A stretch of DNA of 49,623 bases from Bacteroidales bacterium (GTDB lineage: Bacteria; Bacteroidota; Bacteroidia; Bacteroidales; GCA-2748055): positions 1-49,623 of the forward strand of contig JAIPBT010000031.1 of NCBI GenBank assembly GCA_021738565.1, in the 5' to 3' direction. The position numbers and the translations under genes were made by a program. Numbering within the stretch: the first letter of the stretch is position 1; each line of letters opens with the position of its first letter. The notes under the pieces are model-generated. The model did no database searches. It was not told where the DNA came from and saw only the letters and a list, made by a program, of their open reading frames with translations. This document shows positions 4,250 through 48,462 of the stretch, one piece after another.

Positions 4250-4259
4250 ATGTTTTGTA

Positions 4260-18400: not shown

Positions 18401-21400
18401 CTGCATCGGTGCTGACCTGCAGGCGTGGAATTGTCTGTGCGGTTGCAGGACTGATGGTCACATCTTCAGAATAATTATAAACAAGTTTGTGACTGTTGCT
18501 GGTAATACCCGTTCCCACATGTGCAGCGAGACTCCTGGTAACAGCATATCGTTTTGTATATACTCCATCAGTTTCCTGCTCGCCATTGAAGGTAAGCGAC
18601 TCAACATCAGCTCCGTTGTTAACAGAGAGGAAAGCATCTGTTGTTGCCAGGTCAGCTTCTACGATACTTTCAATCAACAGTTCTTCGGTTCCGGTTAAAG
18701 CATGGTATGCATAAACCTTCACATAGATATTTTCATTCAGATCGAAGCCTGCAGCTTTGAGTGTTGTAGTGTCAGGAATCGTTACTGTATCTGTGACAGC
18801 TTCAGCATAGGCTTGGTTTCCAAGGTTGTAATAAACCATCTCTAGATCTGTATCTACACCTTCAAGTACAACTTCCAGCCTGACATCGGCATCAAAAGGA
18901 CCGAAGGCTTCATATTTAACCTCCATGTCACCTCCGAAATAGAATGTCGCATCTTCAGGATCATCATTCAGGGCTGTGTTGCTTTGAAGTACAACTTCAA
19001 GGTGTTCACCGGTTGTTTCATTAACGATCAATGTGCCTGTTTCGACTGTTTGTGCATCATTCAATACAAGGTCTTCAGCATCGGGATCAACCCATCCCGG
19101 GAATCCATGAACCTTGTCTTCCTGGTCATAGATCCAGGCCCTGACGTTGATATCGTATGTACCTGTTGGAATGTCGACAGTATCCGACATGAACACCGTG
19201 AAGGTATCCAGGGCGGCTACGGTTGTGAAAGTGTAGTCGTATTCCTGGTTCTCTTCATCCAGAAGGACCAGTGAAAATTCAAATTCTGTTGTATCGGGCC
19301 ATAAGATGGCTCCTGCATTCTCCACGGCAGTTGTATCAATTTCCCCGGACTCATCGTAAAACTGTTGTTTTACCGTCCAGCCGAAGGTAAAGTTCTCGCC
19401 GACATTGATCACCGGAGTGAACAGCGTGGTATCAATGGTTCCGTCTATAAGTTTCCAGTCATATGCATCCAGGTTGTCGTAAATTGCCAGCGGATCATCC
19501 ACCGGGGCAACCAGATCCATGCTGTAGGAAACCGGGTAGTAGTCTATTTCGAAATCTATAAGGTTGGATTCTCCTGACAGGATCTTGACATCTGAAACAT
19601 TCCACCATCCGCTCTCGGTCACTTCCTGTATCCACCTGAAATGTGTGGCAGATGCCAGGTGTTCTGATGGAATGGATATTTCATACAATTGATCAGTAGC
19701 GTTTTCCGGCATCCGGTTCGTGTAAATGGATCCCGGAATATCCAGTGTAGTGAAAGTTTTACCCGCATCTGATGAAACCTGGAACTGGGGAAGTGTCTGC
19801 TGATTCACGAAAGGAATACTGGCAGAATAGACGAAACTTACAGTAACAGGTTCGGGTGTGTCTGTAAAGTTAATTGCCTTGCTTGTTGCAAACCTGTCGC
19901 CTTCCATGTTAAACTGGCTATTGTCGAAGTCGTATCCAACAATTTCTATGAAATCATCTTCTGAATCAAATACATCTTCCATAGTTTGGATAAGAAGATC
20001 GTTATAGGTTGCCTTGGAAAATACCCTGGCCCTGACAATGAACTGGGTGTACTCAGGATCGCCGGTATCTGTGATGAAACCGAGGTCGATCAAATCCTGC
20101 TCTGAGGGAAACTGTATGCCAAGGGTCACATCACCCAGCTGATCACTTTCTGACAGAACATGGTAAAGATCTCCCTGCTCCAGGGTAATGGCTGTCCATG
20201 CCATTTCTGAAGCATCTATGCCAAATGTGCTGTAATGGATATTGATCTCCTCTCCGAACTCATATTCAACATCAAGTTCAGCCAGTGTAACTGAAGGATA
20301 GATCAGATTTATACTTGTACTTACCGCTGCTTTCTGAACGGTATCCGGCTCAATGATCCTCAGGCCCGAAACCTCCAGGTCGCTGCTCCCAATGTCAGGA
20401 TAGTAAACACCAATGTATAATTCATCGGGAAAATCGAGCATATCCTCCACAGAAATAAAATCATTGATGTCTGTATAATTTGTAATGTACCCATCGGTAC
20501 CTGAAGTTACTGTTATGGTGCCATTTTCAAGTTGTGTCCAGTTGCTGACTCCATCCCAGTATACCAGTTTTGCTTCTCCATCTTCACTTCCATCCTGGTA
20601 AATGTTGAAAGCAAGTTTTGCACCGGGAGTAAGATCATTTCCTGTTAGACCACTTGCCCAGTAATAAACTGCATCCAAAACCGGAGTTTGGGGAGCTCCC
20701 CTGTTGATGAATTCATCCCTGTAATTGAACAGGTCCTCACTGAACGGGTAATTCTCTATCAGTATGCGGATGCTAACACTTGCCCCATAATCATAGGCGG
20801 GTAGTGTTCCGCTGACCGTTCCACCCTGGTTGTCATTGATTGTTGTGGTAATTTCCTGAATTCCAAAGGTTTCCCAGACGTTGTTTGCCACATCAGTTTG
20901 CACCTGCAAAAGCACCGATGCATCCATCCCGGTCCTGATGTATCCATCCAATTCAAATGTAACCTGGAGGTCATCATCGGGGATGCTGTAAAGAGTTCCG
21001 GCATCCTCATAATCGTATGAGACATCTGTTATTGATAATGAGAGTGGCTGAATGGTAAATCCGGCGGATTGCTCGTATGACCAGTTCTTGGCCTCTGATC
21101 TCAATGTAAGTGTCTTGTACCCGTTATCCAGTGGAACAGTTACACTGAAGTTAGCGAGTGAGGTAAGTGTATCGAGCCAATTGTTTCCGTAATAGACTTC
21201 ATATGTGGTATAATCAGGGAACTCGCCTGTTTTATTTGTGACACTGAAATCTACTGTCTCTCCAGGATAAACCGGATCCATATCAGGATCGGTCAGGGAT
21301 ATTGTATAGGATGGCTGACCAATATAAAGGTTGTAATCAAGGCTTTCAGCTTCAATGTTACCGCCGATTGCAGGAATGTTCAGAATAAAATCCTGTAATT

Positions 21401-34447: not shown

Positions 34448-36235
34448 TCAAACACCATCCTGCATCAGTCTTTTCAGTTCATCAAGATAATCTTCATATA
34501 CATCGCGCGGGATACATTTGTTTTCAGTGCAAATTGATGCTGCCATACCAACCACTTCGCCCATGACTCCTCCGGTGCGCATTACACGGGGTGATCCCAG
34601 GCCAATGTGCGTCACACTGATGTTCCTGCCTGCCATGAACAGGTTCTCAATGTTTCTTGAATAGAGGCACCGGTAGGGCATATGGTAAGGATCGTGCTTC
34701 GGGTGTGTATACCAGCTGATAAATTCCTTGCCCGGAAAATACCTGCTGTTGAGGGTATCCGCAAAATGAACATCTATTCCCCAGGTAAGTGTCACTGCTG
34801 CATCTTCATATTGTACATCGTTGATAATATCCAGTTCGCTCAGGATAACATCCCCGAGAAGCCTTCTGGATTCCCTCTTCCCCGATACGTGGGCAACCCA
34901 ATCCAGGCTGTAACGGTCGTATTTTCCCCGGAGGTTGTTCTTGAGATACGACCAGTTGCCGAATACGGCCCTCAGGTTGTGATCCCTTATATATTCTGCC
35001 TCTTCTATGATATCCCTGTCGAATCCGCTTTCCCAGCGCCAGGTACCGCTGGTTGCATCAATGAAATACTTGTCGGTAAAATGCAGCGCCCAGGGCACTT
35101 CGGGGAATCCTGATGCAGTGTCCTTAAGCGTTGATCTCCACAGGTTGGAAGAGCCCATGGTCATGCTGTCTGCTTCAATGGGGGCGCTTGGTTCACCGGT
35201 TGTTTCCCTGCTTTCCCTTCCATACCTGTAATCTGCTCCTGCCAGGGCGCCCACGTTGCCGTCGCCAGTGCAATCTGCAAAATATTTTGCATGGAAAACA
35301 TGTTGTTGCCCTGTTATTGTATTGATCGCGTATACACTTTCTATCCTGCTTTCAAATATTTCGAGCCAGTTCACATGGGTATTCAGGAACAGATCCAGGT
35401 TCGTTTGATTTTTTACCAGTTGAAGTTTCAGATCGTCATTATATTTTTCAGCCTCTGCAGCATTTGGAGGATGGTGGTCGTTGAGGGCCCTTACGATGTT
35501 ACCCAGGGCCGGGTAGAGGTTGTGATCAACGCTGCCCACAAGGTGGACCCTGACTTCCGAGCTGTTGTTCCCGCCCAGTATTGGCCTGTTCTGTATCAAT
35601 GCTGTTTTAAGACCCAGTCGGGCAGCAGTAACCGCGGCACTTATTCCGGCAATCCCGCCTCCAACAACCACCAGGTCATAGTTGCCTTCATCAGATATTT
35701 CTTTTGGAATGGCGCCGGTCCTTGTTCTCAGTCTGAAGAGCTGGTATGGAGATTCAGGCAGGTATTCGTATTCTTTTTTTGAGAGGAACACAGCATCAAT
35801 TCTTCCATTGAATCCGGTCCGGTCATGCAGCCTGATGGTATGCTTACCGTTTTCAAGCTGTAAGGAGCCACCTTCAACCCATCCCCAATGATCCGGCTCT
35901 TTTCCAAATTCCTTATCCACCATCATCCCGTCAATACTGATGGTGAATAGTCCAGGTGCAGGTTCTCCACCGTGTGGGGCGACCCAGTTGAAGGTCCTGA
36001 CATACAGGTGGTAACTGCCCGGTTCTTTAATTTCAAAGACGGTTGAAGCATCCTCCACGGGTACGCCCAGTCCATGGGCCATCAGATAGGGAGATCCCAT
36101 CTGATCAATGAATTGGGCATCGTTCACCCATCCGCCGTAGTTCCTGAAAGACTCTGCCTCTATAAATACTTTGTCTTTTGTGTAATCGCATGCATTCAAT
36201 AGAAGAAGCATGCATATCAGTGCCGGCAACCTCAT
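34448..36235 (-). CDS. FAD-dependent oxidoreductase lipoprotein with CBM-like N-terminus
   Basis: This 595-residue protein has a lipobox LLNAC (Cys16). Residues ~20-155 form a beta-sandwich resembling carbohydrate-binding modules (FIEAESFRNYGGWV, LYVRTFNW). Residues ~185-595 are an FAD_oxidored-type domain: VVVGGGIAGISAA (Gly192-Gly197), GGNNSSEVRVH, a GDGNVGALAGADY block and a C-terminal NLFMAGRNISVTHIGLGSPRVM. It probably oxidises a sugar or an oligosaccharide; family members are often mislabelled xanthan lyase. It lies 4 bp after the lyase gene stops, so the two work together. Presence outside the cytoplasm would need FAD loading before or after export. Confidence 0.85.
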   Translation of the reverse strand: MRLPALICMLLLLNACDYTKDKVFIEAESFRNYGGWVNDAQFIDQMGSPYLMAHGLGVPVEDASTVFEIKEPGSYHLYVRTFNWVAPHGGEPAPGLFTISIDGMMVDKEFGKEPDHWGWVEGGSLQLENGKHTIRLHDRTGFNGRIDAVFLSKKEYEYLPESPYQLFRLRTRTGAIPKEISDEGNYDLVVVGGGIAGISAAVTAARLGLKTALIQNRPILGGNNSSEVRVHLVGSVDHNLYPALGNIVRALNDHHPPNAAEAEKYNDDLKLQLVKNQTNLDLFLNTHVNWLEIFESRIESVYAINTITGQQHVFHAKYFADCTGDGNVGALAGADYRYGRESRETTGEPSAPIEADSMTMGSSNLWRSTLKDTASGFPEVPWALHFTDKYFIDATSGTWRWESGFDRDIIEEAEYIRDHNLRAVFGNWSYLKNNLRGKYDRYSLDWVAHVSGKRESRRLLGDVILSELDIINDVQYEDAAVTLTWGIDVHFADTLNSRYFPGKEFISWYTHPKHDPYHMPYRCLYSRNIENLFMAGRNISVTHIGLGSPRVMRTGGVMGEVVGMAASICTENKCIPRDVYEDYLDELKRLMQDGV

Positions 36236-36239
36236 ATTT

Positions 36240-38162
36240 TTATTTTTTTATGATGAATGTTTCCTTTCCCTGCAATCCTTTTTGTTCGCTGGTAAGTGTA
36301 AGCCGCCAGAGAGATTTTCCCCAGATACGTTGAAGCCTGTTGTCATCAATGTTGATCTTTTCGATCTGAACGTACAATTCTTCATCGTGCATGAATTTCA
36401 GTTGGGTTTTCCCATTGGTAACCATAATTTCACCTTCTTCCAGGATCACAGGTTCAGTTGCAAGGATAAAGTGCCATTGGTTCCTGCCGGTTTGCCCGGA
36501 TTGTTTCCACGCATCGGTAAGCGTTATCATTTCATCCGGGCGGTCAAGGGTCATGTTCCTGTTCCACGACAGGGTGTGGGCATTTTCAGGATAAGCTCCT
36601 GCAATATCCATATTTACAGTTGTCCTGTCGCCCCTGATCTTTGTATTGAACCCACGTGCCCTGAATTCATGGCCATCCTTTTGCATGACTCCGTTGGGTG
36701 AGGGCAGGTTGTGGTAAGCAGACTGCATGGTCCATATTGTATATCGCTCATTGCTGAAGGTCTTACGCGTGTAAGTTCCTACACCGACGTCAATAAAAAG
36801 AGGCATTCCGTCATAAAAAATGACGAAGCTGCCGACATCATTGTGGTTGTGGCTTTCATCGTTAAATCCACCCTTGATTGTCAAAAAGAATCCTTTTTCG
36901 CCTTCCCTTGCAACAGCAACTTCTAGATCGGGAAATATATAATTCAATTCGGGTTCAAAAGGTTGCTCAAAATCAGCCAGTTCATCCATGATCATGAGAT
37001 CGGGAATTGTCCTTTGTCCGAATGGAGAGCGTCCTGACAGGATCCTGTGTGCTTCCGGGTTTTTCCTGAACTGTTGTGCAGCCAGTGCCATCATGTTGGC
37101 ATCGTCGATTGATTTGCCGATCCTGTACATTGTGCCGGGTTCGTGGATGACCCTTGCGCTGCCATCAGCAAAGTTTACATACCAGGAATCGCTGATGTGG
37201 ATCTTATAGATGTATGTTCCCATGTTACGGATCAGGGAGTTGTTGTAGACATTGAAATTACCACCGGTTGCCTTGTCAAGTAAAAAGAGACAGTCGAACA
37301 GCGATGCCCCTGCGCGTCCCCAGTAACCCGGACCTTCGTCACACCCGCCGTCAGCCGGATGCGGGTTCAAATAATTATCAAGCACATCCAGGGCTTTCCA
37401 TACAGACTCGGTTCGTGTTTCCGGATCCTTCTCCAGCAGAAGTACGGCAGTAAGCCAGTTAGATACGATCCACGGATTCCAGTTGTTTGGTATCCTGTCC
37501 GTGTACCCCATGTACCAGAAATCGTTGTGTTCGAGCATGCTTACAATGACCCTTCGGTTCACCTCTTCGTAAATTCTCTTGCGGAGGAGCGGTGTTACAT
37601 TGTCAAATTCTTCACCCAGGTAATAATCAACCCATCCCAGCAGGGCTGCTGTTTCAGCACTGAAAAGATCTACAAACACATCGTTAATGTCATGTAGTTT
37701 GTTTCCTTCAGAATGTGCCGGTACCACCCATGTGGTTTCTTCCAGGATCAGCCAGATGCCGTTGATGATATCATCAAGGAACCTGCCTTTGTTCTCAGCG
37801 ATCTCCGCCATGCACAGATCAGAAACCGCGTTCCTCCGTCCATAATACCTTTGGGAATACCTGGTCCGGTTACCGTCTATATCGAAGTCCATATATCGCC
37901 GCGCAAGCAGGGAAGGCCAGTCGTAGTCAAGGTATTTTTCACCTTCGGCAATGATTATGTCTACAGTATTTTCATCCAGCGTTTCCCAGAACATATCATT
38001 CTTCAGGGGCAACGGTTGAAATGCATCATGGTCCAGTATCATTTCTGACAGGGCCTGTTTTGAAATGGCGCCGGTCATAATGTTCCTTTCACTTTCCTGT
38101 CCTGAAAGCGAAAGACTGAACAGGGCCATAATGATTGCTACAAGGGTAGATCGGTAAAACAT
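36240..38162 (-). CDS. Heparinase II/III-like polysaccharide lyase
   Basis: This 640-residue protein has a signal peptide (about 1-20, SLSLSG). An alpha/alpha-toroid (about 60-370) carries NNWNPWIVSNWL and DGGCDEGPGYWGRAG, then the beta-sandwich heparinase II/III domain carries SHNHNDVGSF (437-446) and RYTIWTMQSAYHNLP. These are the classic lyase motifs (Tyr and His catalysis). It would cleave uronic-acid polysaccharides by beta-elimination, giving the unsaturated ends that GH88 removes. The exact PL family (21, 15, 17 or other) cannot be told by eye. The downstream FAD oxidoreductase starts 4 bp later. Confidence 0.87.
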   Translation of the reverse strand: MFYRSTLVAIIMALFSLSLSGQESERNIMTGAISKQALSEMILDHDAFQPLPLKNDMFWETLDENTVDIIIAEGEKYLDYDWPSLLARRYMDFDIDGNRTRYSQRYYGRRNAVSDLCMAEIAENKGRFLDDIINGIWLILEETTWVVPAHSEGNKLHDINDVFVDLFSAETAALLGWVDYYLGEEFDNVTPLLRKRIYEEVNRRVIVSMLEHNDFWYMGYTDRIPNNWNPWIVSNWLTAVLLLEKDPETRTESVWKALDVLDNYLNPHPADGGCDEGPGYWGRAGASLFDCLFLLDKATGGNFNVYNNSLIRNMGTYIYKIHISDSWYVNFADGSARVIHEPGTMYRIGKSIDDANMMALAAQQFRKNPEAHRILSGRSPFGQRTIPDLMIMDELADFEQPFEPELNYIFPDLEVAVAREGEKGFFLTIKGGFNDESHNHNDVGSFVIFYDGMPLFIDVGVGTYTRKTFSNERYTIWTMQSAYHNLPSPNGVMQKDGHEFRARGFNTKIRGDRTTVNMDIAGAYPENAHTLSWNRNMTLDRPDEMITLTDAWKQSGQTGRNQWHFILATEPVILEEGEIMVTNGKTQLKFMHDEELYVQIEKINIDDNRLQRIWGKSLWRLTLTSEQKGLQGKETFIIKK

Positions 38163-38206: not shown

Positions 38207-39187
38207 TCATCCGAATATGCCTGCAAATAATTTATCCATCATCGAAAGTCCCCAGTATACCAGGGGTATTGTAAAAATGCTGAATACAGTTGACATGAAA
38301 ACGTTTTCCGTGGCGAGTTTGTCATCCGATCCGAATTTATGAGCCATCACTACAATGGTTGCCATGCATGGCATCGCAGCTTCCAGAAGAACAACCTTTT
38401 TGGCAATGTCTCCAAATTCAGGAAAGAACAGGTATGTCGAGAGGTTGATGACCATACTCAATACAAAAGGAACGAGCAGCAGTTTATTGAAGGAAAGCAC
38501 AAAAACGTGCGGTTTTTTTAAGATGCCCCTTACATGTGTCTGCACAAGCATTGCACCTATGTAGAGCATTGACAGGTATATGGTGGCCCGACCCAGCCCG
38601 TGCAAAGGCTCAAACAGGAGGTCCGGTAATTTTAGATTGAAGAACATGATGATCAGCCCGAGGAAAAAGGCTATCGTGTTCGGGTTCAGCATGTTCTTCC
38701 AGACCTCATTTCTTTTACCTCCTTTTCCTTTAAGAAACACCCACACCCCGAAAGTCCACATAACCGAATTGGAAGCAAGATGAAATACAGCCGCGTAGAG
38801 CAGTCCTTCTCCTCCCGGGAACAATGAATCCATGAGTGGAAAGCCAAGGAATACGATGTTCCCGAACATGTGATGATTGATCATAACAGCCCGTTGGTTT
38901 CCTTTAAGACCCATGATAAGGGAAGAAAGATCCCCAGCCAGGTACATGATGGCCAATGCGACATAAGCGAAAAGGAAAACCAGTCCACTGTTGCGCAGAA
39001 TATCGGGGTTCATATCGATCTTTGCAAAAGTGGTTATGATCAGAAGGGGCAGGGTAATGTCAAATACAATGTCGGCAATTCCTTTCTTTGTACCCTCGGT
39101 AATTACCTTGAGTTTTGTTGCGAGAATGCCTATTGCAACGAGTATTGCCAGGATGATGATCTGGTTGATGATGATGGCATTATTCAT
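38207..39187 (-). CDS. AEC-family (auxin efflux carrier) transporter
   Basis: This 326-residue integral membrane protein has about ten hydrophobic segments in two halves. The first half includes IADIVFDITLPLLIITTFAKID and MINHHMFGNIVFLGFPL. The second half includes MLYIGAMLVQ and AAMPCMATIVVMAHKF, both typical of AEC permeases. These carriers move small organic acids such as malate or malonate. In this cluster, import or efflux of a sugar acid or fermentation product is likely. I prefer the ATG at 39187 to the GTG at 39193. There is a 104-bp gap to the gene above. Confidence 0.86.
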   Translation of the reverse strand: MNNAIIINQIIILAILVAIGILATKLKVITEGTKKGIADIVFDITLPLLIITTFAKIDMNPDILRNSGLVFLFAYVALAIMYLAGDLSSLIMGLKGNQRAVMINHHMFGNIVFLGFPLMDSLFPGGEGLLYAAVFHLASNSVMWTFGVWVFLKGKGGKRNEVWKNMLNPNTIAFFLGLIIMFFNLKLPDLLFEPLHGLGRATIYLSMLYIGAMLVQTHVRGILKKPHVFVLSFNKLLLVPFVLSMVINLSTYLFFPEFGDIAKKVVLLEAAMPCMATIVVMAHKFGSDDKLATENVFMSTVFSIFTIPLVYWGLSMMDKLFAGIFG

Positions 39188-39291
39188 GTACACATATTTG
39201 ATTCATAGACTATTAACGAATCAATTATGAAAAATGTTTTTTCCTTTTTTAATATTTCAGACAGTATTCAGCCAGGTCTGGTTTGGACATT

Positions 39292-40278
39292 TTACTCAAT
39301 ATCTGACGAAACATCACCGAGATCCTTTCTCACCAGTTTTCTGAATTCCCGCTTCATCTTTTCCGTATTGATCCATGTATATACCGATATCCTTCTCCTT
39401 GTATTTTCCGGAGGCGTCCATACATCTTTTTGAGTGGTCATGTCCGGATTCATGATCGCGTGAATGATCGCAATGTCCCACATGGTCCATGTACGGTGTT
39501 CAGGATACAGGTCCCTCCATCTTTGGACGAGGTAGTTCCATTTTGTTCCCCTGTTCCTAAGAAGGTCGAAGGTTTCCGTCTGATCGAACTTGTAATTTTT
39601 ACTTGTAGTTGCAGTCATGATATGTGTTTCAAGTTCCGCCAGGTTGAGCAGGTAATCCATTGCATCCAGGTCATTCCTCGTATTGAATTCATTTTTATCC
39701 CATATCCTGTCTCTCGCATTGTATTTCAATCCCATGCCATACCACCGGATCTTTGATGTAATTGTTGAGTCTGCAAGAAGTGCAGAGGCCAGGTTGGTAA
39801 CTGCTCCGAGAGTAACGACATTCAGTTTTTCACCATAGCCCAGGTCGTGCACTTTTTCAATAATAAATGCAGCAGCCGGAGAAGGGACTGTTTTTCCCGG
39901 GTTCCATTGGTTCAGGGGCTGCGTTGATCCAACCGGATGAGGAATATGAAACATATCGTTTAACTTCAACAGGTCCTCATTAATGCGCTGGCTCTCAAAT
40001 ACGGTGCTGTCACCGCCTCTCTCAGGGTGAAAATTGTACTGGGCTGAAGTTAGCCCTATTACGGTGATCTTTGGGTCGATCAAGGCCAGTGTAATTGCGT
40101 AGAGGTCATCTATCTCATTACCGGAATCGCTGTCGATCACCATTGATACTGAATCCGGGCGTTTGATCCTTTTGCCGTATGTAACTGCAGTGACGACGAT
40201 TGATGCGATGATTCCGAGGATCAGGATAGCCCGTAATACTTTCCAGACCTCTTTTTTCAATCTGCTGAAGAATCCCAT
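39292..40278 (-). CDS. Nucleoside hydrolase-like protein with N-terminal anchor
   Basis: This 328-residue protein has a membrane segment near residues 16-34, then an IUNH-type domain beginning MVIDSDSGNEIDDLYAI (metal-binding Asp49, Asp51, Asp57, Asp58). Later the Asp in TMWDIAIIHAI matches the fourth metal ligand. The family hydrolyses N-glycosidic bonds of nucleosides, but members in glycan clusters are uncharacterised and could cleave other glycosyl linkages. Predicted location is the periplasmic face of the inner membrane. It starts 4 bp after the sulfatase gene stops. Confidence 0.8.
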   Translation of the reverse strand: MGFFSRLKKEVWKVLRAILILGIIASIVVTAVTYGKRIKRPDSVSMVIDSDSGNEIDDLYAITLALIDPKITVIGLTSAQYNFHPERGGDSTVFESQRINEDLLKLNDMFHIPHPVGSTQPLNQWNPGKTVPSPAAAFIIEKVHDLGYGEKLNVVTLGAVTNLASALLADSTITSKIRWYGMGLKYNARDRIWDKNEFNTRNDLDAMDYLLNLAELETHIMTATTSKNYKFDQTETFDLLRNRGTKWNYLVQRWRDLYPEHRTWTMWDIAIIHAIMNPDMTTQKDVWTPPENTRRRISVYTWINTEKMKREFRKLVRKDLGDVSSDIE

Positions 40279-40282
40279 ATAG

Positions 40283-42022
40283 TTATTCTTTTTTCAGTAT
40301 GATTATTTCTTTTAGTTCAAGGTCAGCAAGGCCATCACCTGTACAGGAAATTATAAAATTATCAATGCCCTGTGTCAGTGAAACGTTGCCTAATTTCACT
40401 ACCGGCCAGTTTCTTTCATATACTTCATTTCTCTGAACCCTGTCGGGGGTAAATACCCGTGGAGCAGAAAATGTTTTATCGAGAGCAAATGTATGCTGCC
40501 TGCTGCTTGTCTGCCAGATGAGTTTATCACCGGCAGACGGATTGTTGCAGGCAAGTTTTGCATATACTTCGTATTCCCCGGTTTCTATCACTTCGATTGG
40601 CCAGGTTGCTTTATTGTTTCCTTCTTTAAATCCGATCAGCCAGTCATTTGCCCAGCCCATTTCTCCCTTAAAACTTATGGACCCTTCCAGACTGGCTTCG
40701 GGTGCGGGCAAAGTTACCCTGGGAGATTCATTGTATCCGACAGGTACAGGAGGTACGCCTGTTCCTTCCATTGTCACATCACTGAACCATTGATCAATCT
40801 TCATGGTCAATGATGAGGCAATCCCAGGGAAATCCCTTTTAATATCCTGTTCCTGTCCCGGGTCTGCGATCATATCATAGAGGAGCGTGTCTCCGTATTT
40901 GATTGCAAGCCGGTAGCGGGGTGTTCTTACCGATACCGGGGTTGGTTTCACTACGCTGTTCACCTGGTGTGAGAAGATCATCCTGTCTTCAATGTCGCGG
41001 TTTTCGATCAATTCCCTTGAAAGGTCTATTCCATCCAGGGGGTAAGGGGTATTCAGATCCAGTTCTGTCAGGCCATGCAGGGTAGGCAGGAGGTCAATGT
41101 GCGAAGCCAGGCCAAATATGGTATCTCCGGCAGGCAATTTGCCAGGGTACCTGATCAGAAGAGGAGTTCGGACCCCACCTTCATCTACATGGGCCTTTAT
41201 TCCTTTCATACCGGCATTGTAGCGGTGGCCGTTGGGACCGTTGTCTGTAAGGTACAATATAATGGTATTATCATCAATGTTAAGTTGCTTCAACTTATCG
41301 AGAACCCTTCCCACATTATCATCGATGTTTTCACACATACCATATACTGCAGCGTTCTTATCGTCCAGTCCCATGCCCTTGTATTTGTCAAAATACCGAT
41401 CCGGTACCTGGAAAGGTCCGTGCGGGGCATTGTAGGGGATATAGCAAAAGAACGGCCCGTTCCGGTGTCTTTCAATAAAATTCAATGCTGAATCAGTCAG
41501 CACATCCGTAATATATCCTGTTGTTTTTACCTCTTTCCCGTTGTATTCAAGGTGGGTATCAAAATAATTGTTCCAGTGTCCGGCACAGAATCCGAAAAAT
41601 GTATCAAATCCCTGTCCAATAGGATTATGCGGGTAGTGTTCACCGTTGTGCCATTTGCCGAAACAGCCGGTTACATAACCATGCTCGCCAAGTGATTCGG
41701 CGATGGTCTTCTCTTCCGAACGCATGATTTCTTTCCCGTGCGTTACCCAGGTTGTTCCTGTCCTTAAGTGATAGCGGCCCGTGAGCAGGCTGGCTCGTGT
41801 GGGTGCGCAAACCGGACTTACATAGAACCTGTCGAAATAGACTGATTCTTTCTTCAGTTGATCAAGATTCGGAGTAGAAACATATGGATTTTTTGTAAAC
41901 CCAAAATCCCCGTACCCCTGGTCATCGGACATGATCAGTACGATATTCGGAGGATTCTTATTGCATGAAGCAAGAAACAGGAGTAAGACTATTGATACGA
42001 TAAAACTGATCCTGACGGTCAT
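40283..42022 (-). CDS. Lipoprotein sulfatase 2 (formylglycine-dependent)
   Basis: This is a 579-residue sulfatase. Lipobox FLASC (Cys20), metal site SDDQGYGDF (32-40), maturation motif CAPTR (Cys72) followed by SLLTGR, and GKWHNGEH are all present. The last ~130 residues form a CBM-like beta-sandwich (residues GEYEVYAKLACN, then NFIISCTGDGLADLELKEI). It is a paralogue of the sulfatase at 237-2000, with the same lipid anchor, the same cysteine-type motif and a similar C-terminal extension. The locus of lyase, GH88 and sulfatase points to a sulfated uronic-acid polysaccharide. Confidence 0.93.
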   Translation of the reverse strand: MTVRISFIVSIVLLLFLASCNKNPPNIVLIMSDDQGYGDFGFTKNPYVSTPNLDQLKKESVYFDRFYVSPVCAPTRASLLTGRYHLRTGTTWVTHGKEIMRSEEKTIAESLGEHGYVTGCFGKWHNGEHYPHNPIGQGFDTFFGFCAGHWNNYFDTHLEYNGKEVKTTGYITDVLTDSALNFIERHRNGPFFCYIPYNAPHGPFQVPDRYFDKYKGMGLDDKNAAVYGMCENIDDNVGRVLDKLKQLNIDDNTIILYLTDNGPNGHRYNAGMKGIKAHVDEGGVRTPLLIRYPGKLPAGDTIFGLASHIDLLPTLHGLTELDLNTPYPLDGIDLSRELIENRDIEDRMIFSHQVNSVVKPTPVSVRTPRYRLAIKYGDTLLYDMIADPGQEQDIKRDFPGIASSLTMKIDQWFSDVTMEGTGVPPVPVGYNESPRVTLPAPEASLEGSISFKGEMGWANDWLIGFKEGNNKATWPIEVIETGEYEVYAKLACNNPSAGDKLIWQTSSRQHTFALDKTFSAPRVFTPDRVQRNEVYERNWPVVKLGNVSLTQGIDNFIISCTGDGLADLELKEIIILKKE

Positions 42023-42036
42023 GGTTGTATGCTGGT

Positions 42037-43215
42037 TTATTTTCCTTTCAGGTTCCTTTTAATAAGTTCTGTCCTTTGCTTTACACTCAGGTGGCTGTGG
42101 TTGAGGTCTTCCGGCGTATTTAGGCAATAATCAACCAGCTGATCGATGGTTGAGGTTGCAACATGCATTCTGGTATCTGATGATGCGTAGTAGATAAAAA
42201 CCCTTCCATCTTCAGTTGCTATCCATCCGTTTACGAAGAGAACATTGGATACATCCCCAACGCGTTCTTTGCCGGTGGGTCCCATGAACAGTCCGCCGGG
42301 TCTCGCGATGACCTTTGCCGGGTCCTCCAGGCTGGTCATGAACATATAAAGTGTATAACGCAGTCCTGCCGCACATCCCCTCACACCATGAGCAAGGTGA
42401 AGCCATCCTTTTTCGGTTTTTATTGGTGCGGCGCCCTGTCCGTTCTTTGATTCTTTGATGGTATGGTATACACGTTCATCAATAATGATCTCATCGCCGA
42501 TCTCTGCTTTTTCCATGTTATCGCAAAGCGCCCAGCCAATCCCGCCTCCGGTTCCGGCTTCGATAAAGCTGTCCTGCGGCCTGGTGTACAGTGCATATTT
42601 GCCATCCACGAATTCCGGGTGCAGGACCACATTTCGCTGTTGTTCTCCCCTGTGTTTAAGATCGGGAAGGCGTTCCCATTTTTTAAGGTCTTTTGTGCGA
42701 ACAATCCCGGCTTGAGCGTTTGCTGCTGAAGTGTCTCCGGGAGGAGCATTCTTATCTTTTCTTTCAACACAGAATATTCCATAAATCCATCCATCCTCGT
42801 GGTGCGTAAGTCTCATGTCGTATACATTAACATCCGGTTCATCCGTCTGGGGCATATCGATGGGGAAATCCCAAAATTTCCATCGGTCTGTTCCATTCTT
42901 ACTTTCAGCTATTGCAAAGAATGATTTTCTGTCGTTACCCTCAACCCTGACAACCAGGTAAAATTTGCCATTCAGCATAATTGCCCCTGAATTCATTGTT
43001 GCGTTAACTCCAATGCGCTCCATCAGGCAGGGATTTGTCTTGTAATTCAGATCATATCGCCAGAATAGCGGGGTATGATCAGCGGTCAGGATCGGCCTTT
43101 TGTACCTGTGAAAAATTCCGTTTCCCGGAACTACTTTCTTGTTCCTCTTATTGATCAGCTTATCATGTTTTTTTTGCAACTCTTTGAGCCTTTTTTGAAA
43201 TTCCTTTTTCTTCAT
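42037..43215 (-). CDS. 4-O-beta-D-mannosyl-D-glucose phosphorylase (GH130)
   Basis: This 392-residue protein closely follows the GH130_1 mannosylglucose phosphorylases of Bacteroides: FWRYDLN, NPCLMERIGVNAT, YDMRLTHHEDGWIYGIFCVER, RNVVLHPEFVDGKYALYTRP, IKTEKGWLHLAHGVR and a late IYYASSDTRMHVATST. It cleaves Man-beta-1,4-Glc with phosphate to mannose-1-phosphate and glucose in the cytoplasm. The ATG at 43215 is preferred; an earlier start would overlap the activase gene. Substrate in other species arises from epimerised mannobiose. No epimerase or mannanase is here. Confidence 0.92.
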   Translation of the reverse strand: MKKKEFQKRLKELQKKHDKLINKRNKKVVPGNGIFHRYKRPILTADHTPLFWRYDLNYKTNPCLMERIGVNATMNSGAIMLNGKFYLVVRVEGNDRKSFFAIAESKNGTDRWKFWDFPIDMPQTDEPDVNVYDMRLTHHEDGWIYGIFCVERKDKNAPPGDTSAANAQAGIVRTKDLKKWERLPDLKHRGEQQRNVVLHPEFVDGKYALYTRPQDSFIEAGTGGGIGWALCDNMEKAEIGDEIIIDERVYHTIKESKNGQGAAPIKTEKGWLHLAHGVRGCAAGLRYTLYMFMTSLEDPAKVIARPGGLFMGPTGKERVGDVSNVLFVNGWIATEDGRVFIYYASSDTRMHVATSTIDQLVDYCLNTPEDLNHSHLSVKQRTELIKRNLKGK

Positions 43216-43264: not shown

Positions 43265-44167
43265 TCAGAAAATAGTAAAATTAAGTACACCTGATGAGAC
43301 CATGATTTCTTCCCATTGCAGTTTTTCCCCGGCGGTCGGTTCCCTGTATTTCATTTTTTTTGAAACGATCCCGTGCTGTTCCGCTTTTCCTGAGCCCATG
43401 CTGTGGTAGGGAAGTATATGTATTTCCTTTACCGAATGGTATTGTTTTGCAATAGAAGCTATACTTTCAAAGTGATCCGGCCGGTCGTTCAGGTCCGGAA
43501 CAAGGGGGCACCTCAATATGACATTACACCCTTCTTTCTCAAAATGCTTAAGGTTCTTCATGATCATTTCGTTGGTTTGCCCTGTAAACTGCCTGTGCAG
43601 CTCCGGATCAGATTCCTTGTAATCGAGCAGAATGAGATCGGTGAAGGGAATGACTTCGAGAAAATGACTTGGTTCGGCATAGCCACTCGTATCCAGGCAG
43701 GTGTGTATGAACTCTGCCTTTGCAGACTCCAGTATCGACCTTGTAAAGCGGTACTGTACCATGGGTTCACCTCCTGATATGGTTACCCCGCCTCCGGAAC
43801 CTTTATAATATTCACGGTCTTTCCTGATGATATCGACAACCTGTTTCGTATTCATCTTCTCACCGGTTCTCTCCAGTGCTCCGTGCGGACAAACTCCGAT
43901 GCAGTCCCAGGTCCGGATGCATTTTGTGAAATCCACAGCATGGATACCTTCATTGTTTTGATGGGCATGAACCGGGCAAACATCCACACAATTCATACAG
44001 TGGGTGCATTTTTCCGCGTAAAACCTTAACTGGGGAGAGGTCGAAATGGACTCTTCATTATGACACCAATGGCAATTCAGCGAACAGCCTTTCAGGAAAA
44101 TGGTTGTACGTATTCCGGGACCATCATTCAGACTTCCTCTTTGTATGTCAAATACGATGCCTTCCAT
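43265..44167 (-). CDS. Glycyl radical enzyme activating protein
   Basis: This is a 300-residue radical SAM activase (PflA-like). The SAM-cluster motif is CSLNCHWC (Cys28, Cys32, Cys35). A ferredoxin-like insertion follows: one complete cluster set (Cys54, Cys57, Cys60, Cys64) and a second set Cys83, Cys89, Cys93 in which the expected second cysteine is Thr86. GGGVTISGGEPM is present. It abstracts a hydrogen from the glycine of the partner enzyme, in the cytoplasm, under anoxia. It starts 3 bp after the glycyl radical enzyme gene stops. Confidence 0.93.
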   Translation of the reverse strand: MEGIVFDIQRGSLNDGPGIRTTIFLKGCSLNCHWCHNEESISTSPQLRFYAEKCTHCMNCVDVCPVHAHQNNEGIHAVDFTKCIRTWDCIGVCPHGALERTGEKMNTKQVVDIIRKDREYYKGSGGGVTISGGEPMVQYRFTRSILESAKAEFIHTCLDTSGYAEPSHFLEVIPFTDLILLDYKESDPELHRQFTGQTNEMIMKNLKHFEKEGCNVILRCPLVPDLNDRPDHFESIASIAKQYHSVKEIHILPYHSMGSGKAEQHGIVSKKMKYREPTAGEKLQWEEIMVSSGVLNFTIF

Positions 44168-44170
44168 TAA

Positions 44171-46420
44171 TTAATATAGCGTTCTGTTCAATATTTCAAC
44201 CTGGATGTCCTTTTCCAGTTCCACGAACCTTGCACTGAACCCCCCGACCCTTACAAGCAGGTTGGGGTATTCTTCAGGGTGGATCATGGCCCTTTCAAGA
44301 TCCCCTTTGTTCACAGCAGTGATCATTAACTGTGCCCCGCCTTTTTTAAAATAGGTTGTTATGAGCACTTCTGTTTGTTCACGGAATTTGGTAAGCATCT
44401 CTCTTGATATCTTAAAATTTTGCGATGCGCCTGCATGAATGTCTGTCCTTGGTTTGGCAATGGAATTCAGCAATGCAGTGGCACCATTCTTATCCATGCC
44501 CATGTGCGGTGTATTACCGTTTGCAAGCGATGTATAAGCGAGCCTGCCGTCGGCAGATGCTGCCGTGTACCTTCCAAAGATCGTGTTGGCTGAATTGTTG
44601 ATATTTACTACCAGGTAACTGTCAAGTCCAACTTTTGTTGCTTCTTTCATGGTTGCAAAGCAGACATGATCGTGGACCCTCTTCAGCATTTCATCCGCTT
44701 CATCATTGTCATTTCCGTATTTTGGCTGTTCCAGGAGCCTTTTTCGCAGCAGTCCATATCCTTCGAAATTTGCATCCAGGGCATTTACGATCTCATCCAG
44801 GGTGTATTCGTTTTTTTCGTAGACCAGTTTTTTGATGGCGAGAAGGGCATCAGCAGTGTTTGTATTTCCATATGTTTCCAGGGTTCCCCCGAGATGTCTA
44901 ATACCTCCCGCGAAAACAGCTTTACCGCGGGAAATGCAATCATCGAAAAGTATGCTGAAAAAGAGAAACGGTGCGGCTTTTCCCGCAACTTCGTATTCGA
45001 TCTTTTCCTGGACGGCAAGAGCGTGGATGTAGTCCTCCAGGTTGACCCGGTATGCTTTCCATAAATCCCCGAATGAATTGATCTTCATATGGTTTGCCTC
45101 CGGCACGCCCATGGCTCGCGGACCCACGGGGTCTTTGCCCTTGTGAAGGGTTATCTCCAGCGCTTTTGCAAGGTTGATCAATCCGCTTGGTGTGCCGAAG
45201 CTTTTTCCGTAAATCACATATTCACCACACCCGAACGGAATACAGTCCAGGGCCATTTTTTCATCTATGCCAAAAGCAGATGTTGCAGCGGGTATATTTA
45301 CCTCATCGTTATAGAGCATTGGATAGGGATTTCCTGATGCGAACATATCAAATGCCCTGTTCATTAATCTATGGTCGAGTTCCCTGTACCATCTGAGGGT
45401 CAGCTGAGGGAGCACATCTGCATGCTTTTCTACGGAATCCATTATAACAAGGGCCATTTCATTGGCAGTAGCCGGATCCTTTCTGCCCTTCCCCCCGATG
45501 ATCACCCTTCCGTCATATATGATCTTCCTGTAGTTTGCCAGTTTCCAGAGGTGTATGAGGTATTCCGTTGCCTGCTTCCTGGTCAGTTCACCACTGGCCA
45601 GGTCGTTCGCATACAATGGACCGAGGTAGTCATCCATTCGTCCGAAGTTATTTGATCCCGAACATAGACAATACAGGTAAAACAATTGTATACCTTCAAG
45701 CAGGGAGGCCGGGGGTCTTTCCCGGATATTTACAAGTGCCCCTGTGAGTTTTTTGAAATGCAGGGATTCTTTGTTGGTTCTCGCCCTGTTCATGTGGTCC
45801 CTGGCCTGCTGCTCGTAGAAGATGATCACCTTTTTGAGCAGGCCGAGCGCCCCAAGCATACCGTTGTAAAGGTCGGCTGCGCCTGCATTTGAATTGCGGT
45901 GCTGCGTTATCTCCTTTTCCAGTCCGGGGATCCCCTTTTCCATCAGCTTGTGATAATTGAGCTGGGATCCTGACATGCGCAGCAGGGGAAACCCGATTCC
46001 CGGTTCACCCGTCCAGTTATCACTCGGCAATAACTCGGCAATATCCCCGGGATAGGCTTTCCTTGTCTGCTGACCTGTATCATGGTTCTGCCAGTATTTT
46101 TCTGTTTCCGTTAACAGCCCGGATAGAACAGGGTCCTTTATTTGTATTTGAAGATCATTGAATTTGGCAGGATCAAATACATAAGCAAATCCACCCCTGT
46201 CTCCTGCCGGTTGTGGAGTAAATGCAAGCGGGGGATAGTTAAACCTTCCAGCAAAAAGATCATCTTTTTCAAGGGGAAGGAACATAGATGGAAACTGGTG
46301 TTCCAGTATGGCCATTTCCCTTGCAATGATCCTTTCATCATCGAACGACCGGTATATCCGGGTAAACTCAATGTTCCATTCTGCCTGTTCTGCAGGTGTC
46401 AGCGTCCAGTAGCTTTGCAT
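44171..46420 (-). CDS. Glycyl radical enzyme, eliminase-type (GCGE motif)
   Basis: This is a 749-residue PFL-like glycyl radical enzyme. The radical loop RVGGFSARF puts Gly727 as the radical site. The active-site loop IPFGCGEYV gives Cys398 with Glu400 two residues on, the Cys-x-Glu arrangement known from dehydratases and C-S/C-N lyases (usually GCVEP) rather than the double Cys of PFL. GRMDDYLGPLY and a long LDxNFEGYG-like region are also present. I infer elimination from a diol-, sugar- or sulfonate-like substrate, but no known subclass fits. The ATG at 46420 is chosen because a -7 box lies just upstream; a TTG at 46453 would overlap it. It forms an operon with its activase. Confidence 0.9.
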   Translation of the reverse strand: MQSYWTLTPAEQAEWNIEFTRIYRSFDDERIIAREMAILEHQFPSMFLPLEKDDLFAGRFNYPPLAFTPQPAGDRGGFAYVFDPAKFNDLQIQIKDPVLSGLLTETEKYWQNHDTGQQTRKAYPGDIAELLPSDNWTGEPGIGFPLLRMSGSQLNYHKLMEKGIPGLEKEITQHRNSNAGAADLYNGMLGALGLLKKVIIFYEQQARDHMNRARTNKESLHFKKLTGALVNIRERPPASLLEGIQLFYLYCLCSGSNNFGRMDDYLGPLYANDLASGELTRKQATEYLIHLWKLANYRKIIYDGRVIIGGKGRKDPATANEMALVIMDSVEKHADVLPQLTLRWYRELDHRLMNRAFDMFASGNPYPMLYNDEVNIPAATSAFGIDEKMALDCIPFGCGEYVIYGKSFGTPSGLINLAKALEITLHKGKDPVGPRAMGVPEANHMKINSFGDLWKAYRVNLEDYIHALAVQEKIEYEVAGKAAPFLFFSILFDDCISRGKAVFAGGIRHLGGTLETYGNTNTADALLAIKKLVYEKNEYTLDEIVNALDANFEGYGLLRKRLLEQPKYGNDNDEADEMLKRVHDHVCFATMKEATKVGLDSYLVVNINNSANTIFGRYTAASADGRLAYTSLANGNTPHMGMDKNGATALLNSIAKPRTDIHAGASQNFKISREMLTKFREQTEVLITTYFKKGGAQLMITAVNKGDLERAMIHPEEYPNLLVRVGGFSARFVELEKDIQVEILNRTLY

Positions 46421-46450
46421 TGTAATGAGATCTGGCTTTAAGGTCCTTGA

Positions 46451-46458
46451 CAAATATA
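46451..46458 (-). promoter_or_regulatory. Putative -7 box for the glycyl radical enzyme operon
   Basis: The minus strand reads TATATTTG, matching TAnnTTTG, 30 nt upstream of the ATG at 46420. This suggests the enzyme, activase and downstream genes can be transcribed apart from the symporter gene. Confidence 0.5.
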
Positions 46459-46590: not shown

Positions 46591-48462
46591 CTAGTTTTCC
46601 AGCTTGTCCCACCATGTTCTCTTCATGATCAGGAATACTATTGCAGTAATTGCAATTGTGATCAGCAATGGTACTTTCAGTTTAATGACAAGGAAAATTG
46701 GAAGTGCCACCAGGGCAGTCTGACCAATGGTTCCTATTGCGATGTTAAACATGTCGATCCCAAAGTTTTTGTTTGGTTTAAACGAGGGATCCTGTGCCAT
46801 TACCTGCTCCCTGATGGGTTTCCAGAATCCCCAGGGCCTTACATTCTTGTAAAAATTCATCAGTACTTCGTTCTCTGTAGGTTTGAACATGTAAGTACCT
46901 ATGAAACAGCCAATAGCCGAAAGAATCAGAATCACGGGAAAGAAATAAAGGATCCTGATATCGGGTGCATGTCCGGGGAACAGCGCTTCGAGCATATCAA
47001 AGCCCAAAGCAGTGCTGATGTATGGAGCAAGCCCCACGAGTATTCCGATCAGCATCCCCCAGAAGTAACCGAATGCATTGAACCTCCACCAGTACCATTT
47101 GAGTATATTGGATGCCATGTAGGATCCCCACAGGGCGGAGACAAGGATCTGGAGTACCTGGTTTACATTCTTTGCGAAAAAACCGAGGATGATGCTGACA
47201 ACTACCGTAATTATGCCCGCGGAATAATTGGTTAGTTTGATCTGTTTGTTGGAAGCATCCGGTTTGATATACTTGAGATAGAGGTCATTGGTGATATAAG
47301 CCTGCGCAGCGTTCAGTGTCCCTGCAAAGGTTGACATAAATGCTGCCAGCAGACCTGCCAGGAGCAGTCCGAGCAGCCCCACGGGCACAAATTCCGCGAT
47401 GGCAGACGGCAGGATCTGTTCAAAGTCAATTCTTTCACCCACCATCAGGTTCAGTTTGTCGTAGAAAAGTATGCCCAACAGTGCAAAACCTGCTATCATA
47501 AGGTACCTGGAAGGCATAAGAACCACGGAAACAAAACCACTCATTTTTGCAGCATCTTTCGGGGATTTTGTAGCCAGGATCTTCTGCATGTCATAGTTGG
47601 GTGCCGGGCCAGCTGCTGACACGAGAATCCCTTTCATGACCATCATCCAGAAGAAAAGACTGAACAGTTGGTATCCGTCCTCTGCAATTTTCCGGTTTAC
47701 TTCCGGGATGATGCCGGACCAGTCAAGATCAAGTCTGTTACCGAACCAGGGGCTGGTCCATCCTTCAGGTACGATTGTCCGGATATCCACATTTCCCAGT
47801 TTTATCATTGCAATTGCCGCGATCACTATGGCCGAGATGGTCATGATAGAATACTGGACCACATCTGCCCAGACAATACTGTTCATTCCGCCGAGTATGG
47901 CGTAGAGCACGGCAAATAAAGTAAATACAACACCATAGAAATGGGGCACGTAGGCAGCACCTAAAGCAGCTTCAAGTGCTGAGTTCCAGTTCTCGGGCAT
48001 AAATATCATAATGAATTTCCCGAGTCCTATAAAGCCATAGGCAAGGAATCCCAGGCAGCCGAGGAGCGCAAAAATTACTACGATGTTGTGTGAAAGTTTT
48101 GCACCAGCTCCGAAACCGAAGCGTGTCCCGATCCATTCTGCACCCGTGGTGACGTTGGATCTCCTTAGCCAGATGGACAGGTAGACCATTAAGAAAATCT
48201 GGTTAAATACAGGCCACAGCCATGGCAGCCATATGCTTTTAAGTCCGTAAACAAAACCAATGGTTACAAGCCACATGGTTCCGCTGATATCGAACATCCC
48301 GGAGGCATTTGACAATCCGAGGAAATACCAGGGAAGTTTGTTTCCGCCGAGCAGGTAGGCGGATTTGTCCTTTTCGGCCCTTTTCTTCATAAAGAAGCCG
48401 ATAAATACGGTAAAACTGAGGTAGAGACCGATCAGTATGAGATCAATTACTTGTAGTTTCAT
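46591..48462 (-). CDS. Sodium:solute symporter (SSS family)
   Basis: This 623-residue integral membrane protein has about 13-14 hydrophobic segments. SSS hallmarks are KDKSAYLLGGNKLPWYFLGLS near the N-terminus and AAFMSTFAGTLNAAQAYITNDLY in the middle (the conserved sodium-binding helix 8 region), with ANILKWYWWRFNAFGYF further on. It is SGLT/SglT-like and probably imports a sugar, a uronate-containing oligomer or a related metabolite released by the glycan enzymes downstream. It is the first gene of the series but lies 170 bp before the glycyl radical enzyme gene. Confidence 0.92.
   Translation of the reverse strand: MKLQVIDLILIGLYLSFTVFIGFFMKKRAEKDKSAYLLGGNKLPWYFLGLSNASGMFDISGTMWLVTIGFVYGLKSIWLPWLWPVFNQIFLMVYLSIWLRRSNVTTGAEWIGTRFGFGAGAKLSHNIVVIFALLGCLGFLAYGFIGLGKFIMIFMPENWNSALEAALGAAYVPHFYGVVFTLFAVLYAILGGMNSIVWADVVQYSIMTISAIVIAAIAMIKLGNVDIRTIVPEGWTSPWFGNRLDLDWSGIIPEVNRKIAEDGYQLFSLFFWMMVMKGILVSAAGPAPNYDMQKILATKSPKDAAKMSGFVSVVLMPSRYLMIAGFALLGILFYDKLNLMVGERIDFEQILPSAIAEFVPVGLLGLLLAGLLAAFMSTFAGTLNAAQAYITNDLYLKYIKPDASNKQIKLTNYSAGIITVVVSIILGFFAKNVNQVLQILVSALWGSYMASNILKWYWWRFNAFGYFWGMLIGILVGLAPYISTALGFDMLEALFPGHAPDIRILYFFPVILILSAIGCFIGTYMFKPTENEVLMNFYKNVRPWGFWKPIREQVMAQDPSFKPNKNFGIDMFNIAIGTIGQTALVALPIFLVIKLKVPLLITIAITAIVFLIMKRTWWDKLEN

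Follow-up and report, generated by a model that had tools for sequence, protein, structure and literature searches.

Glycyl radical enzyme and activase genes in the window

The window analysed here is a 49,623-nucleotide stretch of Bacteroidales bacterium DNA (GenBank contig JAIPBT010000031.1, assembly GCA_021738565.1), which comprises the entire contig C49 of a 3.98-Mb draft genome. An oxygen-sensitive glycyl radical enzyme (GRE) of 749 aa is encoded on its reverse strand (44171..46420) and was identified from its Pfam domains, its position in a phylogenetic tree and an AlphaFold model. The PFL-like and Gly_radical domains score 332.5 bits (cutoff 24.3) and 76.3 bits (cutoff 22.2), respectively. 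The glycine loop RVGGFSARF, Cys398 and Glu400 are all intact, as stated in the original prediction, an earlier annotation made from the sequence of this DNA; residue numbers refer to the 749-aa protein. The predicted glycyl radical residue of the loop is Gly727 (44240..44242, reverse strand), which aligns with Gly765 of HypD. Cys398-Gly399-Glu400 (45221..45229, reverse strand, computed from the start at 46420) forms a Cys-x-Glu motif, predicted to supply the thiyl radical and the base, and its Cys and Glu are invariant across 110 aligned GRE rows. A radical SAM activating enzyme with a ferredoxin-like cluster domain (43265..44167, reverse strand; TIGR02494, 315.4 bits, cutoff 174.35), overlooked in that prediction, starts 3 bp downstream of the GRE gene. 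The two domains, the glycine loop, the catalytic cysteine and the activase place the protein in the GRE superfamily.

The longest open reading frame (ORF) for the GRE (44171-46453, reverse strand) is TTG-initiated and encodes 760 aa. The ATG at 46420 is preferred as the probable start, because the internal Met-Gln-Ser-Tyr-Trp is also present in the closest relative, locus L026 (71% identity). The AlphaFold model, built from the 110-row alignment, has a pLDDT of 95.8 and a pTM of 0.94; an earlier model from 8 rows (pLDDT 59.7) was discarded. The single other PF02901 match in this genome is a HypD on contig C19 (1172.4 bits, cutoff 1100). Excerpts of PMC8473560 and PMC7077986 give Cys-x-Glu as common to GRE eliminases, which supports the original reading of such enzymes as eliminases. 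The window protein carries this motif as CGE and is probably a GRE eliminase in its chemistry.

Phylogenetic placement and active site of the clade

In a FastTree phylogeny of 127 rows (rows shorter than 600 aa omitted), 105 rows including the window GRE form one clade with support of 100 (SH-like, without bootstrap) and a stem of 0.78. The 105 rows include one exact duplicate and several near-duplicates. The clade is separate from YbiW, PflD, HypD, HpfG and propanediol-dehydratase-like GREs. The tree does not include CutC, IslA and glycerol dehydratase, for which the comparison is limited to profiles, sequences or structures. No NCBIfam equivalog was seen for YbiW, and membership was judged by the tree, in which the YbiW rows branch separately from the clade. 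Among NCBIfam equivalogs, HypD gave the best score to the window GRE (246.7 bits, cutoff 1100), followed by the choline trimethylamine (TMA)-lyase CutC (225.3 bits, cutoff 1050), the sulfopropanediol dehydratases HpsG and HpfG (225.0 and 201.7 bits, cutoff 1000 each), PflD (PRK09983; 187.8 bits, cutoff 1109) and pyruvate formate-lyase (TIGR01255; 78.2 bits, cutoff 994.2). Scores to the indoleacetate and hydroxyphenylacetate decarboxylase equivalogs were also far under cutoff. The adjacent Cys-Cys of pyruvate formate-lyase type is absent, because GC[G/T]E stands in 105/105 rows, and the GCGEY of the window GRE holds one cysteine. Solved GREs share approximately 20–26% identity with it, and the top sequence score is 208.2 bits.

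Collectively, the equivalog scores, the PDB sequence search and the tree favour the outcome that the original prediction proposed to check, a cluster without a characterised member. The window GRE is a member of a deep eliminase clade for which no characterised member was found, and this placement is better supported than any claim about substrate. The clade is supported as a single group and has invariant residues and deletions of its own, and no description of a GCGE clade was found in the open-licence PubMed Central literature. Four odd, long-branched Eisenbergiella GREs join the same side of the root as the clade. The genome of Eisenbergiella tayi (G400) has 10 PF02901 matches. Four of its proteins (L189, L192, L193 and L194) are unusual GRE-like sequences, of which two lack GCxE and the other two carry GCEEG and GCLEN, and their loops read RVTGYSAFF or RVWGWSGYF; L189 and L194 had no NCBIfam hit at 1e-120.

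GCGE, which had been taken for an oddity of the window protein, is the norm of the clade (96/105 rows: GCGEY 79, GCGEF 15, GCGEM 1 and GCGEI 1), and the other 9 rows carry GCTEF. The motif was partly preselected, since the scan patterns for 80 of the loci, those kept of 172 relatives found in contigs, included one with GCGEY (L072 yielded no GRE ORF). Motif-free scans were also run, and those of their members included in the tree belong to this clade as well; some weaker matches, such as G941, G1483 and G1406, were left out of closer reading. GCVEP, proposed earlier as usual in known eliminases, does occur among the other GREs compared, but so do GCVET, GCIET, GCVEL, GCVEA and GCIEV.

According to excerpts of PMC8473560 and PMC7077986, the barrel strands of GREs bear substrate contacts and an aromatic side chain is usually packed against the substrate. 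The clade was aligned with 18 comparison GREs (9 HypD-like, 3 YbiW-type, 3 PflD-type, 2 propanediol-dehydratase-like and 1 HpfG). The stretch around HypD Asp278 has 18 residues in 105/105 clade rows versus 24–25 in the comparison GREs, and the stretch around HypD Ser334, Asp339 and Phe340 has 16–20 versus 30–31. These two deletions, of 6–7 and approximately 13 residues, fall in parts of the protein that contact the substrate in known eliminases. The column of HypD His160 is His in 18/18 comparison GREs and empty in 105/105 clade rows, although it is alignment-dependent (the β1 stretch has 21–25 residues in the clade versus 17–19) and some His occurs within residues 140–156 in 12/105 rows. In the clade, 14 residues reach a conservation of at least 97% and are found in none of the comparison GREs; ten of these have polar or charged side chains (E35, R305, Q339, Y476, E515, Y517, N608, N609, N636 and H662). 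Arg148 and Asn609 are invariant (105/105 each) and align with HypD Arg156 and with HypD Thr645, a substrate ligand, respectively. The two shortened segments and the absence of a His at the HypD His160 position suggest a more spacious pocket, and the active-site differences as a whole are read as a pocket that is larger and more polar. Its predicted lining comprises Glu400, Arg148, Arg305, Gln339, Glu515, Asn608, Asn609 and residue 475 (Glu or Ser).

The best VIA-align match of the model is glycerol dehydratase (1r8w; Z 40.4, rmsd 2.7 over 709 residues), and eliminases overall range from Z 30 to 40. That glycerol and propanediol dehydratases lead the fold matches, with glycerol dehydratase also first by VIA-align, would suit an ordinary small-polyol dehydratase (glycerol, propanediol) that stands in glycan loci by chance. 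CutC, HypD and propanediol dehydratase, however, tie within 1 Z of glycerol dehydratase (Z 39.5–40.1), the β1 His and the substrate-contact segments are gone in 105/105 rows, and no microcompartment family appears among the neighbour Pfam matches listed, so that we consider this reading very unlikely.

The clade is sporadic across approximately 14 phylum-level names. By record title, the relatives kept come from Bacteroidota, Ignavibacteria, Kryptoniota, Calditrichaeota, Cloacimonadota, KSB1, Neomarinimicrobiota, Bacillota, Spirochaetes, Planctomycetota, Verrucomicrobia, Victivallales, Chloroflexi and Pseudomonadota. Members, again by title, include Eisenbergiella, [Clostridium] asparagiforme, Parabacteroides distasonis, Citrobacter, Vibrio and many uncultured bacteria. 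Motif-free scans, whose counts include the centre genomes, found relatives in 8/395 genomes of the window's phylum at E <1e-200. At E up to 1e-100, relatives were found in 2/295 genomes in the order of V. maerlii, 2/295 in the order of a Prolixibacteraceae genome (Parabacteroides query), 8/247 in the class of an Erysipelotrichaceae genome and 17/295 in the order of Eisenbergiella porci. This sporadic spread suggests that the clade was dispersed by horizontal transfer.

Neighbouring genes in the window and across clade loci

The symporter gene precedes the GRE gene, and the activase, GH130-like and further genes continue after it on the same, reverse strand. The sodium:solute symporter (SSF; 46591..48462; PF00474, 97.1 bits) belongs to a cluster that recurs in L026 and L068 and is a possible importer of the pathway's sugar. 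The GH130-like protein (42037..43215; PF04041, 70.7 bits, cutoff 26), whose ORF opens at 43290 and whose start was picked by comparison with L026, belongs to a cluster found in 4/83 loci (the window, L026, L052 and L068). Further along lie a sulfatase (40283..42022; PF00884, 200.7 bits), which is in the same-strand run and is not a conserved partner, a nucleoside-hydrolase-like protein (39292..40278; PF01156, 64.5 bits; a different IUNH cluster was found in 3/83 loci), an auxin-efflux-type carrier (38207..39193; PF03547, 106.7 bits), a heparinase II/III-like protein (36240..38162; PF07940, Hepar_II_III_C, 35.0 bits, cutoff 24) and an FAD-dependent oxidoreductase (34448..36235; PF12831, FAD_oxidored, 236.6 bits). 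The symporter, GH130, sulfatase, lyase and FAD oxidoreductase had been named correctly in the original prediction, as Pfam confirmed, but the activase, the nucleoside-hydrolase-like gene and the carrier were missing from its list. Its setting of a sulfated-glycan operon was rejected as a theme of the clade, as a sulfatase cluster occurs within 6 genes in 5/83 loci including the window, a count made by BLAST clustering that may miss some sulfatases. Elsewhere in the window, also on the reverse strand, are a protein of 3515 aa that carries Reelin subrepeats together with a Por secretion tail (12495-23042) and a TTG-initiated class-V aminotransferase fused to AIR-synthase-type (SelD-like) domains (2045-4276).

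Neighbours were counted across 98 loci, after removal of 7 near-duplicate or very short ones. ORFs came from a simple longest-ORF script, and some neighbours may be wrong. The near set comprises the two nearest other genes on each side (336 proteins); 318 were sent to Pfam and 18 activase-like, short or doubtful ORFs were excluded by hand. The control comprises 112 of 125 proteins drawn from 280 farther proteins of the same loci. Near-gene counts are AraC 37, Gfo/Idh 11, NanE 11 and PhyH 9, with at least 9 ROK, 7 GntR, 6 AKR, 5 fructose-type phosphotransferase system (PTS), 5 GH38 and 4 GH92 proteins. In the control, AraC (2), Gfo/Idh (2), PhyH (2) and AKR (3) were found and the others had none among the matches listed; families absent there were set to 0 or 1 in the enrichment tests. 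AraC is enriched near the GRE (37/318 vs 2/112, p 0.0009), and 34/83 loci have an AraC-cluster gene, usually on the opposite strand. The NanE family, counted by BLAST, is also enriched (11/336 near vs 0/280 far, p 0.0013). Since these two are clearly enriched over farther genes, the AraC regulator and the NanE-like enzyme count as firm partners and the other neighbours as suggestive. An orthology of the AraC neighbours with YijO was considered and dropped; identity is at most 38%, mostly over 60–130 residues, and nothing specific emerged.

Mannose-type neighbours are scattered and include ManA-type isomerases, GH38, GH92 and GH130. D-lyxose/mannose-isomerase-like genes occur in 4/83 loci; the one scanned scored 278.6 bits, below the cutoff of 350. 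The neighbours we call UPF0309, NagA, GldA, DUF4867, HtpG, Adk and corrinoid proteins presumably belong to those families, on our own reading of their sequences. In L132 (12786-16243, reverse strand), a corrinoid-activation-like protein, named in the same way, lies on a strand that converges on the NanE-GRE unit.

Two arrangements recur in part of the clade. One subclade holds the PTS modules, among them the Citrobacter island of four genes, GntR regulator, PTS, GRE and activase, bordered by what we take to be htpG- and adk-like genes. A second subclade (Lachnospirales, Parabacteroides) has ROK kinase, NanE-like, GRE and activase genes, in some cases with a ManA-like gene, or alternatively a Man-type PTS, NanE-like, GRE and activase unit. 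The PTS/NanE-linked rows have Ser475 in 22/22, whereas the other 83 rows have Glu475 in 71 and Ser in 4; His replaces Tyr80 in 22/22 and Phe replaces Tyr401 in 20/22. The change from Glu475 to Ser fits a substrate that may have gained a phosphate in these rows, with the contrast being essentially that of one clade, i.e., one or few events that are not independent. In the Vibrio order, L128 (8922-17103) carries side by side a GCGEF-type GRE, its activase, an FsaA homologue (53% identity to E. coli FsaA), and an activase with a YbiW orthologue (70.5% identity to E. coli YbiW).

In 9/12 listed cases, the NanE-like gene overlaps the GRE gene or is at most 66 bp away. This proximity, together with the loss of the usual barrel His, could point to a non-eliminating radical sugar reaction (epimerisation or isomerisation), with the GRE and the NanE-like protein catalysing successive steps. 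The eliminase Glu is nevertheless invariant and a NanE neighbour is lacking in most of the clade. To our knowledge there is no GRE epimerase, and we regard such a reaction as highly improbable.

Candidate substrates and comparison with named systems

Our preferred reading, held tentatively and at somewhat less than even odds, is that the enzyme is a radical C–O eliminase of a polyhydroxylated, mannose-configured hexose derivative, free in the window organism and 6-phosphorylated in the PTS/ROK-linked subclade. The deletions, the invariant polar residues and the partners of mannose type all favour a hexose-sized, manno-configured substrate. From family knowledge, the neighbouring activase would install a radical on Gly727, which would pass to Cys398 to form a thiyl radical. 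The thiyl would then abstract hydrogen from a substrate carbinol carbon, Glu400 would remove the proton of that hydroxyl, and the adjacent C–O bond would break. The product radical would regain hydrogen from Cys398 to give a ketone or aldehyde. The substrate would be an anhydro-hexitol or a mannose conjugate, perhaps imported by the sodium symporter in the window organism. The original guesses, made from one locus, partly survive: an anhydro sugar or another sugar derivative is possible, but nothing was seen that points to a sulfonated substrate, and the relatives point instead to mannose, N-acetylmannosamine (ManNAc)-6-P-type and PTS/kinase genes.

Several observations weigh against this reading. 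No activase lies within 6 genes of the GRE in 17/83 loci (66/83 have one); a few of these loci are at a contig end (L045, L082) and most have flanking DNA, so their activase may be elsewhere or may have been missed by the ORF script. The mannose link is uneven: PhyH, Gfo/Idh, AKR, ROK, GH38 and GH92 are not enriched relative to farther genes of the same loci, which leaves AraC and NanE alone as clearly enriched, and SSF and GH130 are large families. In the Flavobacteriaceae loci L027 and L032, the GRE and activase occur without recognisable sugar genes. The pocket residues are located by alignment and strand position only, and the Asp278 column is Asp in 15/75 GCGEY-type rows, where the β2 gap may sit slightly differently. 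We think it rather less probable still that the loss of the lid segment and barrel His has widened the pocket to cleave hexose-sized or larger mannose or ManNAc derivatives that hydrolases cannot cleave, with Glu475 changed to Ser where the substrate is 6-phosphorylated.

The leading specific substrate candidate is an anhydro-hexitol, by analogy with YbiW and PflD, which are lyases of 1,5-anhydroglucitol-6-P and 1,5-anhydromannitol-6-P, respectively, in excerpts of PMC12441222. As a special case of the preferred reading, the clade would hold a third anhydro-hexitol lyase, one that opens a 1,5-anhydro ring or that of another anhydro-hexitol, with a 6-phosphate on the substrate in the PTS clade; we judge this unlikely overall. 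Loci of Citrobacter, Pluralibacter, Vibrio, Clostridium and Erysipelotrichaceae combine a fructose-type PTS, GRE and activase as in E. coli pflD-frw. The PTS of the clade is 39–43% identical to FrwC in 8/10 cases (36% and 27% in the other two), and in L128 the FsaA homologue and the YbiW orthologue with its activase adjoin the clade GRE. However, Citrobacter G395 and Vibrio G398 also hold YbiW-/PflD-type enzymes, and the substrate therefore cannot simply be those two compounds. The clade joins neither enzyme in the tree, and the model is no nearer to YbiW and PflD (Z 36.7 and 37.7) than to other GREs (top Z 40.4). The same excerpts describe aerobes that turn 1,5-anhydromannitol into mannose by C1 hydroxylation, which would link mannose genes, and perhaps the PhyH dioxygenases, to such a substrate. 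The PhyH genes of 10 loci form two diverged groups (20–31% identity between them). The aerobic hydroxylase is, however, described there as P450-like and unidentified, not PhyH, and PhyH is not enriched near the GRE (9/318 vs 2/112, p 0.74), so that PhyH as a conserved aerobic counterpart was rejected. The Gfo/Idh neighbours also tested negative as anhydrofructose reductases (46.4 and 56.7 bits against best hits of 219 and 154.4), and an anhydro-hexitol gives no role to the NanE-like epimerase.

ManA and NanE would, in turn, process mannose-6-phosphate or ManNAc-6-P released from a mannosyl (or ManNAc) conjugate of a C3 acid such as mannosylglycerate. A radical lyase of this kind would take hydrogen from the aglycone and expel the sugar, giving mannose(-6-P) and a three-carbon aldehyde acid. 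Among NCBIfam equivalogs, the Citrobacter PTS matches MngA best (388.1 bits, cutoff 763), the GntR regulators are 27–31% like MngR, and a full-length MngB-like GH38 (28% over 900 columns) lies between PTS and GRE in L161. Arg148 occupies the position at which IslA and HypD carry an Arg close to an anionic group (excerpts of PMC8473560). A glycosidase such as MngB achieves this cleavage without radicals, however, and the PTS is as identical to FruA and FrwC as to MngA, and we consider such a conjugate quite unlikely.

The question of the mannose-configured hexose derivative can be approached by growth, since the Citrobacter island is minimal. Several GRE subfamilies, once solved, gave widely important anaerobic reactions (choline, hydroxyproline, isethionate, anhydroglucitol). 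A sugar lyase with a widened pocket, if true, would be an anaerobic route for sugar derivatives that has no description in the open-licence PubMed Central literature searched.

The named systems resemble the clade to different degrees. The glycerol and 1,2-propanediol dehydratases (1r8w, 5i2a, 9rco) share its fold (VIA-align Z 38–40), Cys-x-Glu and glycine loop; identity is 24–26%, and the clade lacks their β1 His and has the two active-site deletions, with residues of propanediol dehydratase compared through the propanediol-dehydratase-like L169 and L170 rather than PDB chains. CutC gives the best single PDB sequence match (208.2 bits, Z 40.1), but its equivalog score is far under cutoff and no microcompartment family appears among the neighbour matches listed. 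IslA, the isethionate lyase, which is marked by a Trp at the aromatic lid site and an Arg678-type β8 Arg, scores 163.1 bits (7kq3), and the clade segment expected to carry the aromatic residue is shortened, IslA itself being outside the alignment. HypD, the trans-4-hydroxyproline dehydratase, is likewise a GRE eliminase and shares the β1 Arg (Arg156, Arg148 in the window GRE), whereas the window GRE has no counterparts of His160, Ser334, Asp339 and Phe340 and has Gly at the Asp278 column. YbiW and PflD are also GREs, for which a hexose-derived substrate makes a plausible parallel, and the plan of PTS, GRE and activase is common to them and the GCGEF subclade. They are nevertheless 28–29% identical, lie on a separate branch and differ in the active-site segments, and enzymes of both types co-occur with the clade enzyme in the same Citrobacter and Vibrio genomes.

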